From contig JAKLGA010000001.1 of the NCBI GenBank assembly GCA_022710975.1, positions 744,001 through 808,000 on the forward strand: a stretch of DNA of 64,000 nucleotides. Reading direction: 5' to 3'. Origin of the DNA: Myxococcota bacterium (GTDB taxonomy: Bacteria; Myxococcota; B64-G9). A program made the position numbers and the translations under genes. Shown piece after piece: positions 55,146-63,789 of the stretch; position 1 is the stretch's first letter; each line of letters opens with the position of its first letter. The notes beneath the pieces are model-generated. The model searched no databases. It saw nothing but the letters and a program-made list of their open reading frames with translations, and had not been told where the DNA came from.

Positions 55146-55715
55146 CTACTTCTTCCGCTCCACCCGCTCCAGGAAGGGGTCGTCGACCCGCAGGGACCAG
55201 CGGCCGTCCTGGACGGTGATCACCGCCCGGCCGGGCTTCCAGCCCTGCCGGAACATGGGGTGGGACAGGGAGAACTCGGCCTTCAGGGTGATCACCACCC
55301 GCCGGGCCGCGGCGTCGGTGACGACCTCGGTCGCGGTGATGCGGCTCCAGCGCCGCTCGACCGACAGCAGCCAGTGGGCGAGCGCGCGGGCCTCGGCCTC
55401 GTCCTGCGGGTGGTGGTGGACGGCCTCGAAGGGGAACGACCGGCCCGGCTGCCCGGGCTCGGCGCCCTCCAGCGTGGCGAACCACTGCTCGGGGACGAGC
55501 GGGTCCTCGGCCAGGTTCGCCCGCTCGAACGCGGTCAGGTAGAGGAGGCCCGGGAAGGGGCACTCCTGCCGCTCGATGACCGGGTCCTGGTAGTGCTTGC
55601 GGATCTCCGCGGAGGCCTTCTCGACGGCAGCCTGCATGGGATCCTCCGGGGGCGCGGCCAGCGCCAGCGCGGGCAGCAGGGCCAGCCAACCCATGCAAGC
55701 CAGCGCGATCTTCAT
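55146..55715 (-). CDS. Secreted protein of the cyclase operon
   Basis: 189 residues. A signal peptide (MGWLALLPALALA) is followed by a mixed domain (AEIRKHYQDPVIERQECPFP, VTDAAARRVVITLKAEFSL, VITVQDGRWSLRVDDPFLER). The ATG has GGAGGG upstream and overlaps the cyclase stop by four bases. The short beta-rich C-terminus resembles NTF2-like or lipoprotein-type domains, but I do not recognise it. Likely periplasmic, facing the CHASE2 sensor. Confidence 0.65.
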   Translation of the reverse strand: MKIALACMGWLALLPALALAAPPEDPMQAAVEKASAEIRKHYQDPVIERQECPFPGLLYLTAFERANLAEDPLVPEQWFATLEGAEPGQPGRSFPFEAVHHHPQDEAEARALAHWLLSVERRWSRITATEVVTDAAARRVVITLKAEFSLSHPMFRQGWKPGRAVITVQDGRWSLRVDDPFLERVERKK

Positions 55716-57493
55716 GGCGTCCCTCCTGGAGTCTCCGGCGGGAGGGCCTGGTAGATGCGGTGGCGGCCCTTGATGCCCTTGAGATCGAAGAAGCCGAGGT
55801 AGCGGGACGAGATGCCGGCCTCCCTGGGCAGGACGTCGTGGGCCGCCTCGCTGAGCAGGACGCGGTCCCGGAGCGGGAACTCGGCCCGGGTCAGGCCGCC
55901 CTCGTCCTCGATCAGCCCCTCGGCCTTCAGGCCCTCGATGCGGCACACCATGTTGACCGGGTCGCCCTCGATGTCGGCCTGCCCGCGCACCTCCACCCGG
56001 TTCACCTCGCCCAGGTGGACGGCGAAGCGCACGTGGATCTGCTCCAGCTCGGGTCGCCCCGCGTTGCGCCGGGCCAGCTCCGCGAGGCTGCGCTGGGCGG
56101 CCCGCACGGCGTCGGAGACCGTGGCGAAGCCCTGCAGCAGCCCGTCCCCGGTCCCCTTGCTGAAGCGCAGCCCGAGCGGCTCGCTGCCGGCGAGGACGAT
56201 GGTGCGCAGCTCCTCCTTCAGCCGGGTGGCGAACTGGTTGCCCTGGACGTTGCTGAGCTCCGTCGAGCCGCACATGTCCACCACGAACAGGGCCAGGACC
56301 TCGCGGGGGATGGGCGCCGGCGGGCTGGCCGCGGACGGGCGCTGGGCGCCCCGCCGCCCCCAGGGGAGCAGGCCGCCGGCGGACGCCAGGGCCGCTGCCG
56401 CGGCGAGCGGCAGGGGCGGCAGCCAGGCGGACGCGGCCAGGAAGGCCAGCAGGGAGGCCGCGGCCACGAGCGCCAGCGCGCCGGCCAGGAGCGCGGCGCG
56501 CGCCCAGGCCGCGCGCCAGCGCGAGCTCAGCCCGGCCAGCAGCAGGGCCGACAGGAACATGAGCCCCAGCCGTTCGGGCCAGCGGGCGTGCCAGATGCCC
56601 CCGTGCAGCAGGGTGTGGATGATGTGGGCGTGGGACTCCACGCCGCTCAGATCGTCGAACTGGCCGCCGGGGTCCGACCAGGGTGTGGCCAGGCGGTTCT
56701 TGGCCGCCAGGGTCTTGCTGCCCACCACCACCAGCCGGTCCTTGAACAGGCTCGCGTTGGTGCCGAAGCGATCCTCGAGCACGTCCCAGAAGGACAGGGC
56801 CGGGAAGGTCCCGTCCGGCCCCAGGAAGTCGATGCGCAGCAGCCCTGCCCGCGGCTCGGCCAGGAAGCGCTCCGGCACGCCGCGGACGACCTCGGCGGGC
56901 TCCCGGCCCTCGAACAGGGCCACGGCCTCGACCGCCAGGGGGTAGTACCGCTTCCCGCCCACGTCGGTCCACAGCGCGATCGTCCGCAGCACCCGGTCCG
57001 TGTCCCTGCGCACCGTGGACAGCCCGGCCCGGAGGTGGGGCTGGAACAAGGGCAGCGGGCCATGGAAGATGGCGGCCTCGGCCCCGCCCTGGCTGAGGGT
57101 CCCGAAGTAGGATCCGACCACGAGGGGTCCGGACCGCTCCAGGAGCTGCAGGCCGGCCCGGTCCTTCTCCTCGCCCAGGGAGGCGTCGGGCACGAAGTCC
57201 AGCACGACGGCCTTCGCACCGGCCTGCCTGATGGCGGCGGCCGCCTGGAAGACCTCGAGCCAGGAGATGGGTCCCTGCGCAGGGCTGCGCGAGGCGCGGA
57301 GCTGGGAGGCCTCGTCGATGGCCACGAGCGCCACGTCGCCGGCCGGCGGCTGGGGGCCGCGGAGCCTGAAGAACACGTCCAGGAGCTGGTCGTCGAGCCG
57401 GGCGCAGGAGCCGGCCGACGAGATCAGCCCTGCCAGCGCGGTCGAGACCGCGGCCAGCGCGAACACCCAGCCGAGCTGTCGGAGCGGCTTCAT
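55712..57493 (-). CDS. CHASE2-domain adenylate/guanylate cyclase
   Basis: 593 residues from the ATG at 57493. The frame runs 12 codons further into tRNA-derived sequence, so the longer start is unlikely. TM1 is at about 5-25. A CHASE2 periplasmic sensor (about 35-310) contains FFRLRGPQPPAGDVALVAID and GKRYYPLAVEAVALFEG. Three membrane segments follow, then a class III cyclase domain (about 390-575): LALFVVDMCGSTELSNVQGN (first metal-binding Asp), LRFSKGTGDGLLQGFA and HLGEVNRVEVRGQADIEGDPVN. It makes cAMP or cGMP in response to an envelope signal. The two downstream small genes are probably co-expressed. Confidence 0.88.
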   Translation of the reverse strand: MKPLRQLGWVFALAAVSTALAGLISSAGSCARLDDQLLDVFFRLRGPQPPAGDVALVAIDEASQLRASRSPAQGPISWLEVFQAAAAIRQAGAKAVVLDFVPDASLGEEKDRAGLQLLERSGPLVVGSYFGTLSQGGAEAAIFHGPLPLFQPHLRAGLSTVRRDTDRVLRTIALWTDVGGKRYYPLAVEAVALFEGREPAEVVRGVPERFLAEPRAGLLRIDFLGPDGTFPALSFWDVLEDRFGTNASLFKDRLVVVGSKTLAAKNRLATPWSDPGGQFDDLSGVESHAHIIHTLLHGGIWHARWPERLGLMFLSALLLAGLSSRWRAAWARAALLAGALALVAAASLLAFLAASAWLPPLPLAAAAALASAGGLLPWGRRGAQRPSAASPPAPIPREVLALFVVDMCGSTELSNVQGNQFATRLKEELRTIVLAGSEPLGLRFSKGTGDGLLQGFATVSDAVRAAQRSLAELARRNAGRPELEQIHVRFAVHLGEVNRVEVRGQADIEGDPVNMVCRIEGLKAEGLIEDEGGLTRAEFPLRDRVLLSEAAHDVLPREAGISSRYLGFFDLKGIKGRHRIYQALPPETPGGTP

Positions 57494-57495
57494 GC

Positions 57496-57555
57496 GACGC
57501 GCCTGGCGTGATTCGAACACGCGGCTCACGGATTCAAAGGCCCATGCTCCATGCG
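57496..57555 (-). pseudogene. Degenerate copy of the 3' part of tRNA-Arg
   Basis: Positions 57496-57525 are identical to 60009-60038, covering the acceptor 3' strand, the T-arm and part of the variable region of tRNA-Arg(TCT). Similarity then decays through the anticodon arm (the TCT position reads TTG and the stem cannot pair). The 5' half is not recognisable. A functional tRNA is excluded. Its position on the 3' side of the intact gene resembles a duplicated integration site. Confidence 0.8.
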
Positions 57556-57596
57556 CGTAGCGTGCCGTGCCCGAGAGGAGAAATCAACAGACCTGA

Positions 57597-58976
57597 TCAC
57601 CATGATCCGAATAGGCGCTGGCCGACCACGACGGCGTAGTCGCGCACCGACACCAGCAGCCACTCGGGCCGGGTGGCGTGGGCCGCGATGCGCGGGTTGT
57701 AATTGCCGTTCGTGCCGGCCGGCGACGCGGTGGCCGGCACGCAGGGGCCGCTCGCGCCGTCGGCGCCGATGAGCGCGGCCCAGTCCTCTGCGTCCTGGGC
57801 GTGCAGGGCCGCGGCGAAGAGCCCCGCTGCGGGGTTGTAGGCCAGGGCGAGACCATCGTAGGCGCCGCAGCCCGGCGCCAGCGGAAACGGCTCCCCCTGC
57901 GGGCTGCCGTCCGGGCCGAGGAACAGGCCCCGGGCCGCGCCGTCCCACCAGGCGGTGAGGAAGCGGCCCAGGAGGGGATCCCACTGCGCCTGGGCGGCCC
58001 AGGTTCCGGCGGCCTGGCCCAGCACCTGCGGCGGGCCCAGGATGGCGCTCGTGCCCTTCTCGACGAGGAGGGCGTGGACCGCAGCCCCGGTGGCATCGGC
58101 GAACGAGTGCGCGACCAGGTAGGCGTTGCCCCCGGGCGGCAGGGCGATGGCCGGGTCCGCGTTCCAGTCGGCGGGCGACAGCGCCAGGGCCGGACCGAGC
58201 AGCGCCCCGGCCGCGCCCACCCGCTGGGCGGTGAGGGCCCCGGTCCCCAGGGTCCAGACCACCAGGCACTCGGGGACATCCGTGGCGCAGGCGATGGCCG
58301 CGGCCACCTCCTGGTAGGAGGCGCCGCCGCCCAGGCCGAAGTCCGGGCCGAGCATGCGGGCCGCGCCCCCGTCGAGGGCGACCAGGCGGCCGCGCAGCTC
58401 CGCCTGGTCGGGGTTGGCGCGGGTGTCGTGCCAGACCACCAGGAAGCCAGCCGCCGCTGGGCACCAGGCCACGCTCGGGGTCTGGGTCCAGGCGTCGGTC
58501 TCGGGGATCTCGAACGGGGCGCCCACGGGGCTCCCGTCGCTGTCCAGGAAGGCGCCGCCCACCGGGGCGTTCCCGTGTACCACCAGGTAGACCTCGTGCA
58601 GCGGGTCGAAGGCCACGTCCGCGTGGCGCTTGCCGCCGGGCACGGTGGGGATCTCGAAGGTTGGGCCCAGGCGCTGGATGGCGAGCGATTGCGCGCCGTC
58701 GTCCGCGGGGTCGCCCGCGTCGCCGTCCGGGCCCCCGCCCTCGTCGGGGGCCCCGTGGTCCTCGTCCGTGGCCTCGACTCCGTCGTCTGCGATCCCGCCG
58801 TCGTCCTCGGCCCCGTCTGGTTCCCCGAGGGCCTCGTCGTCCGAGGCGTCCTGGCCGGCGTCGAGGTCCACGCTGCCCGCCTCCCGGCAGCCGCCCAGGC
58901 TCCCGGCGAGCGCGAGCGCCAGGAGGACGCCCGGCAGGGCGCTCACCACCGCAACCTGTGCGATCCTCCGTGGCAT
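57597..58976 (-). CDS. Lipoprotein with propeller-like repeats
   Basis: 459 residues. The lipobox is GSLGGC (Cys30), followed by an Asp/Glu/Gly-rich linker (about 35-95). The remainder carries WCPAAAGFLVVWHDTRANPD, CATDVPECLVVWTLGTG, DPLLGRFLTAWWDG and YNPAAGLFAAALHAQ, spaced about 45-50 residues apart, a pattern of beta-propeller blades like those in the metallophosphatase lipoprotein. Probably extracellular and surface-anchored; no catalytic site. It lies inside the 2.5-kb segment bracketed by tRNA-Arg and its decayed copy. Confidence 0.75.
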   Translation of the reverse strand: MPRRIAQVAVVSALPGVLLALALAGSLGGCREAGSVDLDAGQDASDDEALGEPDGAEDDGGIADDGVEATDEDHGAPDEGGGPDGDAGDPADDGAQSLAIQRLGPTFEIPTVPGGKRHADVAFDPLHEVYLVVHGNAPVGGAFLDSDGSPVGAPFEIPETDAWTQTPSVAWCPAAAGFLVVWHDTRANPDQAELRGRLVALDGGAARMLGPDFGLGGGASYQEVAAAIACATDVPECLVVWTLGTGALTAQRVGAAGALLGPALALSPADWNADPAIALPPGGNAYLVAHSFADATGAAVHALLVEKGTSAILGPPQVLGQAAGTWAAQAQWDPLLGRFLTAWWDGAARGLFLGPDGSPQGEPFPLAPGCGAYDGLALAYNPAAGLFAAALHAQDAEDWAALIGADGASGPCVPATASPAGTNGNYNPRIAAHATRPEWLLVSVRDYAVVVGQRLFGSW

Positions 58977-59015
58977 GCTACGCGCCTCGGCCTCCAGGGC
59001 GGGTCCAGCGCTCGG

Positions 59016-59744
59016 TCATGCAGTGGCGATCCTGACCCGGATGACCAGCTCGCCGCCGTCCGGAAGCTCGAAGTGCAGCATGGTCGTGCCCACCTGGACC
59101 GGGCTGACCTCGAAGGTGTCTCCGTACGGCCTCTGGATTCGGAGGCAGCCCTGGCAGTCGGCCCAGACGCGGCGGGCGCCGGGCACCGCCAGGGTGTAGG
59201 GCGTCTCATCGACGGAGAGCGTGAAGCCGATCACGGCGGGCAGGGCCAAGATCTCGATGCGGATGGCCGAGCCGTCTGCGCGGACGATGTTCAGCGCGGT
59301 GGTGCCTCCACTGGTTGCGCGTAGCCACATCTCGTCGCCGCGCTGCTCGACGGTGAGGACCTCCTCCGAGGCGACGGCGAACGCGCGGACCGACGGGAGG
59401 TGAAGCCGCGCCGTGGCGCCTGGCGCGATTGTCACCTGCGCGGGGAACACCTCCAGCAAGAGCCTGCGCCCGGTCTGGCCCGCCGCGCTCGGCGACGTCA
59501 CCTCACAAGCGCCAGGGCGCTCTCCGCGGAGCAGCCACCCTTCGGAGGTCTGGAAGGGGAGAGCCACCTCGGGCGAGGTGCTGTGCCATGCCTGGCCCGC
59601 GGGCGGACCGAGGGGCAGCAGGTCACCGACCTGCATCGAGTACCGCTCGAGGCTCGGAGTCGGAACCGGCGGAGCGGCTACCATCAGGTCGATCCAGAGC
59701 ACGAGCGCTACGGCGGCATCCGCACGCTTGGTCATCCTGCGCAT
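59016..59744 (-). CDS. Secreted protein with pilus-secretin N-terminal-like domain
   Basis: 242 residues from the ATG at 59744; the frame extends further without a ribosome-binding site. A signal peptide (ADAAVALVLWIDLMVAAPP) precedes VTIAPGATARLHLPSVRAFA, SEEVLTVEQ, WLRATSGGTTALNIVRADGS and IRIEILAL. That order matches the N-terminal domain found in CpaC/RcpA pilus secretins (PF13629). No secretin barrel follows; instead a short domain (TLAVPGARRVWADCQGCL) ends the protein. It is also inside the tRNA-bracketed segment. The role in secretion is uncertain. Confidence 0.6.
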   Translation of the reverse strand: MRRMTKRADAAVALVLWIDLMVAAPPVPTPSLERYSMQVGDLLPLGPPAGQAWHSTSPEVALPFQTSEGWLLRGERPGACEVTSPSAAGQTGRRLLLEVFPAQVTIAPGATARLHLPSVRAFAVASEEVLTVEQRGDEMWLRATSGGTTALNIVRADGSAIRIEILALPAVIGFTLSVDETPYTLAVPGARRVWADCQGCLRIQRPYGDTFEVSPVQVGTTMLHFELPDGGELVIRVRIATA

Positions 59745-59924
59745 GGCGCTGCAAGTATAGCCGAGCCGCCTGGGTGGAGTCGACGGCGGGCCGCCGGTGA
59801 GCAAAGCGTGTGGCAGCGAGCGGCCGATGGCAGCGCCCCATCGTGCGCGACCTGGCAACCGCCCGACGCCCCAGGGCCAGCGTGGCTCCAGCTCGGCGTC
59901 ACTTTAGCGTGCGGGAAACGCGCC

Positions 59925-59990
59925 TGAGAGGACTCTCACCCCGGCCCCCGATGTCCGGGGGCCGGGGCTGCTCGGCCCGGGTGCCGGGCC
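59925..59990. repeat. Three perfect inverted repeats in tandem downstream of tRNA-Arg
   Basis: TGAGAG/CTCTCA (59925-59938, 2-base loop), CCCCGGCCCCCG/CGGGGGCCGGGG (59939-59967, 5-base loop) and GGCCCGG/CCGGGCC (59974-59990, 3-base loop) follow one another within 66 bp. All arms are perfect. They end 21 bases from the tRNA-Arg 3' end. They could be a tRNA-operon terminator cluster without a T-tract, a structured RNA or part of a recombination site. Confidence 0.75.
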
Positions 59991-60008
59991 TCGCTGCCTC
60001 TGGAGTGA

Positions 60009-60038
60009 GACGCGCCTGGCGTGATTCGAACACGCGGC
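60009..60038. repeat. 30-bp direct repeat, intact copy (tRNA-Arg 3' end)
   Basis: This is identical to 57496-57525. The two copies bracket 2.48 kb holding two secreted-protein genes. No integrase or transposase lies in between. Confidence 0.8.
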
Positions 60039-60084
60039 CCACGGCTTAGAAGGCCGTTGCTCTATCCAGCTGAGCTACAGGCGC
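60011..60084 (-). tRNA. tRNA-Arg (TCT)
   Basis: The acceptor stem GCGCCTG/CAGGCGC pairs perfectly. The anticodon loop CTTCTAA gives TCT (anticodon at 60050-60048), and the T-loop is TTCGAAT. CCA is not encoded. It is six bases downstream of tRNA-Pro on the same strand. The 3' end is duplicated at 57496-57525. Confidence 0.95.
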
Positions 60085-60090
60085 ATGCAA

Positions 60091-60165
60091 TCGGGGCGGG
60101 CGGATTTGAACCGCCGACCTCCTGCTCCCAAGGCAGGCGCGCTGACCAGACTGCGCTACGCCCCG
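60091..60165 (-). tRNA. tRNA-Pro (TGG)
   Basis: The acceptor stem is CGGGGCG/CGCCCCG. The anticodon stem-loop CCTGC-CTTGGGA-GCAGG gives TGG (60130-60128), and the T-loop is TTCAAAT. CCA is not encoded. First tRNA of a two-gene unit with tRNA-Arg. Confidence 0.95.
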
Positions 60166-60177
60166 ATCCGGTCGGGC

Positions 60178-61273: not shown

Positions 61274-61353
61274 GCGAGAGTGGCGGAATGGTAGACGCGC
61301 CAGACTTAGGATCTGGTGCCTCCGGCGTGGGGGTTCGAGTCCCCCCTCTCGCA
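61274..61353 (+). tRNA. tRNA-Leu (TAG)
   Basis: The acceptor stem GCGAGAG/CTCTCGC pairs perfectly. The anticodon stem-loop CCAGA-CTTAGGA-TCTGG gives TAG (61307-61309), and a long variable arm and T-loop TTCGAGT are present. CCA is not encoded. It is 30 bases upstream of the next coding region with no terminator between. Confidence 0.95.
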
Positions 61354-62430: not shown

Positions 62431-63789
62431 ATGAAGACCACGGTGGAAGTGAACGATGCCCTGCACAGGACGCTGACGGTCGAGATCCCCTGGAACATGC
62501 TCCAGGAGGAGCTCGAGCGCGAGTACCAGGAGCTCGCCAAGAAGGCCGCGCTGCCCGGCTTCCGCAAGGGCAAGGTGCCCCACGGCGTGCTCAAGCAGCG
62601 CTACGGTCGCCAGGTGAACGACGAGGTGCTGGCCCGGCTGATCCAGGACTCCTACGAGGCCGCCCTGGTGCAGAACAAGGTCTACCCGGTGGCCAAGCCG
62701 GAGCTGACCCGGGGCGAGCTCAAGGAGGGTGAGCCCTACACCTACGTGGCCCGGGTCGAGGTGCGCCCGGAGATCGAGCTGAAGCAGCTCTCGGGCTTCA
62801 CCTTCGCCGAGAAGAAGGTGGAGCTCCAGGCCGAGGCCGTGGAGCACGAGCTCGAGCACCTGCGCGACGGACGCGCGATCCTCAAGCCGGTCGAGGGCCG
62901 GGAGGAGGCCCAGAAGGGCGACACCGCCATCCTGGACTACCGCGCCACCCGGGACGGCAAGCCGGTGCGCGGCGGGGAGCGGCAGGACCACCCCCTGCAG
63001 CTCGGCGGCGGCAACGCCGTGCCGGGCTTCGAGGAGGCGGTGCTGGGCATGAAGGTCGGGCAGCACAAGGAGTTCGAGCTGGTCTTCCCGGCCGAGGGCG
63101 TGGCGCCCGACCTGGCCGGCCAGACCGTGCGTTTCCATGTCGAGCTGAAGGCGCTGAAGCAGCGCGAGGTGCCCGCGCTCGACGACGAGTTCGTGCGCGA
63201 TCTGGGCGAGGAGGGCGTGAGCACGGTGGCCGAGCTCGAGGCCAAGATCCGGCGCACCCTCACGGAGCGGGCCGAGGCGCAGCTGCGGCGCGAGCGGCGG
63301 GACGAGCTCATCGACAAGCTGATCGAGGCCAACCCGTTCCCGGTGCCGCCCGCGCTGGTGGAGCGCCAGCAGGACGCCATGGCCCGCGAGATGCAGACCT
63401 TCCTGAGCATGCAGGGCCTCGATCCCAAGGAGCTGTCCCAGGGGTTCGAACGGTTGAAGAAGGACATGGCCGGGCGGGCCGAGCGCGAGGTGAAGGCCGC
63501 GCTGCTGCTGGCCGCGGTGGCCGCCCGCGAGAAGATCGAGGTGAGCGACGAGGATCTCGGGAAGCACATCCAGGAGCGCGCCGCCCGCTCCGGGCAGAAC
63601 GCCGCCCAGGTGCGCGCCTACCTCGACGAGCCCGAGCACCGCGAGGAGGCCCGGTTGGGGCTCCGGCGGGAGAAGGTGCTTGATCATCTGATGAAACTGT
63701 CTAACATGGAGCCCGCCGCGGCGGCCGCGGGCGCGCCGGCGACTCCCGCCGCGGACGAAGCGCCCGAGGCCCGAGGAGACAAGGCATGA
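62431..63789 (+). CDS. tig: Trigger factor (ribosome-associated prolyl isomerase)
   Basis: 452 residues, the usual length. The ribosome-binding loop is in [12 protein letters not shown]. The N-terminal domain ([18 protein letters not shown]), an FKBP-type PPIase middle domain ([38 protein letters not shown]) and the C-terminal helical chaperone domain ([20 protein letters not shown]) are all present. The Ala/Pro-rich tail ends [10 protein letters not shown]. It binds nascent chains at the ribosome exit. The stop overlaps the clpP ATG, giving the standard tig-clpP order. Confidence 0.95.

Follow-up and report, generated by a model that had tools for sequence, protein, structure and literature searches.

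A putative integrase-less remnant of a tRNA-Arg-targeted element in a Myxococcota bacterium

A segment bracketed by tRNA-Arg(TCT) and a copy of its 3′ part

Genomic islands targeted to tRNA genes are bounded by an intact tRNA gene and, downstream and in the same orientation, a fragment of its 3′ part (PMC4383910). The Islander criteria require that the fragment include the tRNA end and lie outside conserved protein domains and other tRNAs, and that the interval measure 2-200 kb and contain an integrase gene (PMC4383910). Att-flanked units without integration or transfer genes are known as CIMEs (PMC5704250), and 15 integrase-less islands at ssrA have been reported in Dehalococcoides (PMC3146451). 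Here we analyzed a segment of about 2.5 kb from a poorly sampled bacterium, which is probably an att-flanked, integrase-less (CIME-like) remnant of a tRNA-Arg-targeted element. The segment belongs to a known kind of feature and introduces no new principle.

The window, the whole 64,000-bp stretch of DNA that was analyzed (G000:C1:744001-808000), belongs to a genome of 7.13 Mb in 29 contigs. An intact tRNA-Arg(TCT) gene is located at positions 60009-60085 of the minus strand (ARAGORN and Rfam, 71 bits), and its 3′ half is a putative attL-like site. On its resident side are tRNA-Pro(TGG) (60090-60166, minus strand), tRNA-Leu(TAG) (61274-61353) and a gene (62431-63789) that, from reading its sequence, we take to be trigger-factor-like. 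The opposite boundary adjoins a CHASE2-domain gene, presumed to be a resident flank (55712-57493, minus strand; Pfam CHASE2, E 3e-32). Between the intact tRNA and the 3′ copy lie two genes for putative secreted proteins.

This organization shares with Islander-class islands, which carry a tyrosine integrase (PMC4383910), a tRNA gene followed downstream by its own 3′ fragment in the same orientation, a fragment that contains the tRNA end (identity runs through nt 77), an interval above 2 kb (spacing of 2513 bp) and a fragment outside conserved domains, upstream of the CHASE2 ORF start and at a place where no tRNA is called. Unlike those islands, the segment is very short and its interval has no integrase gene, and for the latter reason it is not classed as an active island. 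It resembles CIMEs (PMC5704250) and the ssrA islands of Dehalococcoides (PMC3146451) in that its cargo, two exported-protein genes only, sits between att-like sites without integration or transfer genes, but differs from them in having no autonomous neighbour at its tRNA, which is tRNA-Arg and not ssrA. The locus is thus comparable to CIMEs in layout, strict CIME status requiring attL and attR that function in excision, or in accretion with an element sharing their specificity, where the sites considered here are putative.

The 3′ copy and its boundary with CHASE2

The 30-bp exact repeat that the initial annotation placed about 2.5 kb downstream of tRNA-Arg was recovered: the 30-mer GACGCGCCTGGCGTGATTCGAACACGCGGC at the tRNA 3′ end (60009-60038) occurs again, exactly and in the same orientation, at positions 57496-57525, against a mean expectation of 0.00 in dinucleotide shuffles allowing up to 3 mismatches. 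Without gaps, the repeat extends over 60 nt at 87% identity (57493-57552 against 60006-60065). Aligned in register with tRNA-Arg, the copy matches at all 30 positions of nt 48-77, at 20/27 of nt 21-47 and at 6/20 of nt 1-20, the last being chance level. Of the seven mismatches in nt 21-77, none lies outside nt 21-47 (hypergeometric P 0.003). We therefore delimit a 5′-truncated tRNA-Arg copy (nt 21-77) at 57496-57552 on the minus strand, made of an exact core (57496-57525) and a divergent part (57526-57552), as a putative attR-like site. The original description of a decayed copy needs qualification, since divergence is found in nt 21-47 but not on the 3′ side.

A copy that is complete at its 3′ end and truncated at its 5′ end is the pattern left by integration into a tRNA gene. 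Because homology does not cover the entire tRNA, the copy does not represent a complete tandem tRNA gene. Its anticodon stem pairs poorly and, as read from the sequence, its anticodon is no longer TCT, which makes it unlikely to be a working tRNA; the tRNA search of the window called none at this position. Further repeats within the segment resemble the background of GC-rich DNA. A detail that the initial annotation did not mention is that the copy ends right before the CHASE2 start codon: the ATG (57493) stands just past the tRNA 3′ end of the copy, and an AGGCG lies about 8 nt before it, with AGG at ribosome-binding-site spacing.

Two exported-protein genes without an integrase

Both genes originally described in the bracketed DNA correspond to ORFs on the minus strand. 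Cargo gene 1 (57597-58976) encodes a putative lipoprotein of 459 aa with a lipobox-like LGGC and an acidic linker, and cargo gene 2 (59016-59747) a putative exported protein of 243 aa with a candidate signal peptide. A sigma-70-like promoter candidate lies directly upstream of cargo gene 2 (59754-59783, minus strand), as a consensus match only (one found, 0.1 expected). Cargo gene 1 has no Pfam, NCBIfam or PHROGs match and belongs to no named family; its distant homologues (31-46% identity) occur in 8 other genomes among the 195 of the phylum, all in other families. Cargo gene 2 has a weak, sub-threshold similarity to T2SS-T3SS_pil_N (Pfam, 19.7 bits for a cutoff of 23), no NCBIfam or PHROGs match, and marginal matches only across the 195 phylum genomes (E about 3e-4 to 9e-4). 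Neither gene has a match in the 8 family genomes. Cargo gene 1 was not found in plasmids or viral contigs, nor cargo gene 2 in phages, and no tRNAs stand beside the distant cargo homologues. AlphaFold models of the two proteins computed without alignments (mean pLDDT of 37 and 43) were set aside.

Codon usage of the lipoprotein gene is ordinary for the host (47th percentile) and that of the second gene lowish (16th), so that a foreign origin of the cargo is not evident: the genes are either long resident or derived from a donor of similar composition. As initially annotated, no integrase lies inside; the segment has no PF00589 match, no convincing tblastn integrase match and no recognisable phage or transfer gene. 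Candidate integrase remnants amounted to noise, the best (E 0.04 over 33 aa) lying largely at or outside the left edge.

tRNA-targeted integration in the genome and comparison with relatives

We surveyed the 46 tRNA genes called by ARAGORN at 47 Rfam hits, each being searched against about 0.7 Mb of its own genome (mostly 20 kb downstream per tRNA, more for some). Cognate 3′ copies outside tRNA genes were observed for Arg(TCT), Asp(GTC) and Ser(TGA) only; the remaining matches were cross-matches, in which other Ser and Ala tRNAs hit either the Ser copy or tRNA-like pieces in the Asp island. Both tRNA-Asp(GTC) and tRNA-Ser(TGA) have a PF00589 tyrosine integrase directly downstream. The Asp(GTC) copy is an exact match of 22 bp at C1:854209-854230, 41.7 kb from its tRNA. 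It marks the far end of an island of about 41.7 kb (G000:C1:812476-854230, L161-L163) just right of the window, in which a 380-aa integrase adjoins the tRNA. This island also contains a tRNA-Ser-like gene (L162:17390-17474, G000:C1:849590-849673) with a TGA-type anticodon loop, scoring 36.9 bits with Rfam and not called by ARAGORN, and, about 170 bp past it, a 45-bp piece (849841-849885) 96% identical to tRNA-Ala(GGC).

The Ser(TGA) copy begins in the anticodon arm and continues to the 3′ end over 56 bp at 89% identity (C4:138639-138694), 4.2 kb from its tRNA, and closes an element of 4.2 kb (C4:134383-138694, L184). Its variable arm carries paired changes (GGCCC/GGGCC against GCACC/GGTGC), so its 5′ part points to an origin in another functional tRNA-Ser, one that the element carried. 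Like the tRNA-Arg segment, this element (here taken as C4:134471-138694) is small and has a 3′-anchored copy reaching into the anticodon arm with a divergent 5′ side; unlike the segment, it keeps an integrase catalytic domain and has little other plausible coding sequence. Integrases also adjoin tRNA-Met (C2), tRNA-Leu(TAA) (C24) and tRNA-Ala(GGC) (C28), with no copy in the downstream DNA examined. The search for recombinases encoded elsewhere that the initial annotation advised gives five tRNA-adjacent integrases, all at other tRNAs. Judging by these sites, integration targeted to tRNAs is common in this genome, and every other cognate copy is associated with an integrase. The integrases beside tRNA-Ala(GGC) and tRNA-Leu(TAA) (L179:3585-4622 and L187:18991-19998) are similar to each other, with no att copy found for either; the second is placed 5′ of its tRNA.

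Comparison genomes were family-level relatives from other genera; a trigger factor query for sister genomes among genome contigs returned only distant Clostridia. The neighbourhood formed by trigger factor and the Leu, Pro and Arg tRNAs is partly kept in family members. Among the six family relatives with tRNA-Arg(TCT), none has a second copy in the 4.5-13.5 kb examined downstream. In several relatives a co-directional gene starts about 20-100 bp from tRNA-Arg, a layout that resembles the present locus minus the segment, where CHASE2 would begin only a few bp past the tRNA; the resemblance is suggestive only. Relatives lack both copy and cargo, but their flanks differ too. Since flanks differ between genera, no empty site can be claimed, and since the CHASE2 gene likewise has only domain-level matches in the family, the absence of copy and cargo there is weak evidence.

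Origin of the segment

In the course of events that we infer, comprising the integration, the position of the crossover and the loss of the integrase, a tyrosine recombinase would have inserted a small element at the 3′ end of tRNA-Arg(TCT), of which 57526-60008 is what remains. Recombination within the shared T-arm/acceptor sequence would have rebuilt a whole tRNA at 60009-60085 and displaced the original 3′ end to 57496-57525. The tRNA-like sequence at 57526-57552, whose attP-like part is GGAGCATGGGCCTTTGAATCCGTGAGCC, would have been carried in by the element ahead of the displaced end. An element-derived 5′ part next to a displaced original 3′ part would confine mismatches to the former. 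The integrase would since have been lost, leaving two exported-protein genes between two att-like sites, in a remnant that is immobile or, at most, CIME-like and mobilizable in cis. The integration remnant proposed initially is thus supported by the layout, by the two integrase-associated parallels at Asp and Ser in the same genome and by the absence of copy and cargo in family-level relatives, but not by foreign composition, which was not seen.

The main rival reading is a duplicate of tRNA-Arg, tandem or ectopic and made without a recombinase, that is now missing its 5′ third and has decayed in part, with two ordinary resident genes happening to lie between it and the intact gene. The host-like codon usage, the lack of an integrase and a similarity extending back to the D-loop, by which much of the tRNA gene is represented, are compatible with this reading. 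We nevertheless consider it rather unlikely, because nt 1-20 match at chance level, the mismatches gather in one half, and even decay without gene conversion or selection would not give 30/30 beside 20/27; moreover, none of the six relatives has a nearby second Arg(TCT) copy. The situation that the initial annotation named as incompatible with integration, an old whole tandem tRNA in a segment carried by all relatives, is not what we found. That the 3′ part of the copy is, whatever its origin, a co-opted leader selected as the CHASE2 translation start region fits the position of the start codon directly after the copy and the spacing of AGG. However, about 10 bp and not 30 would be enough for a ribosome-binding site, and such selection accounts for persistence, not origin, making this explanation improbable.

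Most doubtful of all is present-day mobility, in which an integrase acting in trans would still exchange a non-autonomous two-gene cassette of 2.5 kb at tRNA-Arg(TCT). The five tRNA-adjacent integrases and the exact core would agree with it, and the cassette would then be a very small integrase-less tRNA-targeted element. Against it, the known integrases are at other tRNAs, no second cassette copy was found in this genome, and no matching attP was detected, the exact core being absent from the viral contigs searched and the copy from the phages. There is one tension in the data: the 30-bp core is perfect, yet the cargo looks at home in the host. Any one of three processes could account for it, namely a recent insertion that came from a close relative, gene conversion, or selection acting on the CHASE2 leader.

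Island finders built to require an integrase pass over remnants of this kind. As this locus shows, a candidate remnant can be identified from anchoring at the 3′ end, from the polarity of mismatches and from comparison with integrase-bearing sites elsewhere in the genome. The locus further suggests that family-specific genes for exported proteins may owe their place in this lineage partly to tRNA integration.

The T-stem of tRNA-Arg (60009-60085) reads GCGTG/CACGC where most family members have GCAGG/CCTGC. A foreign 3′ half supplied by an element would give such a difference; the displaced copy has the same T-stem, so the change may predate the insertion event.
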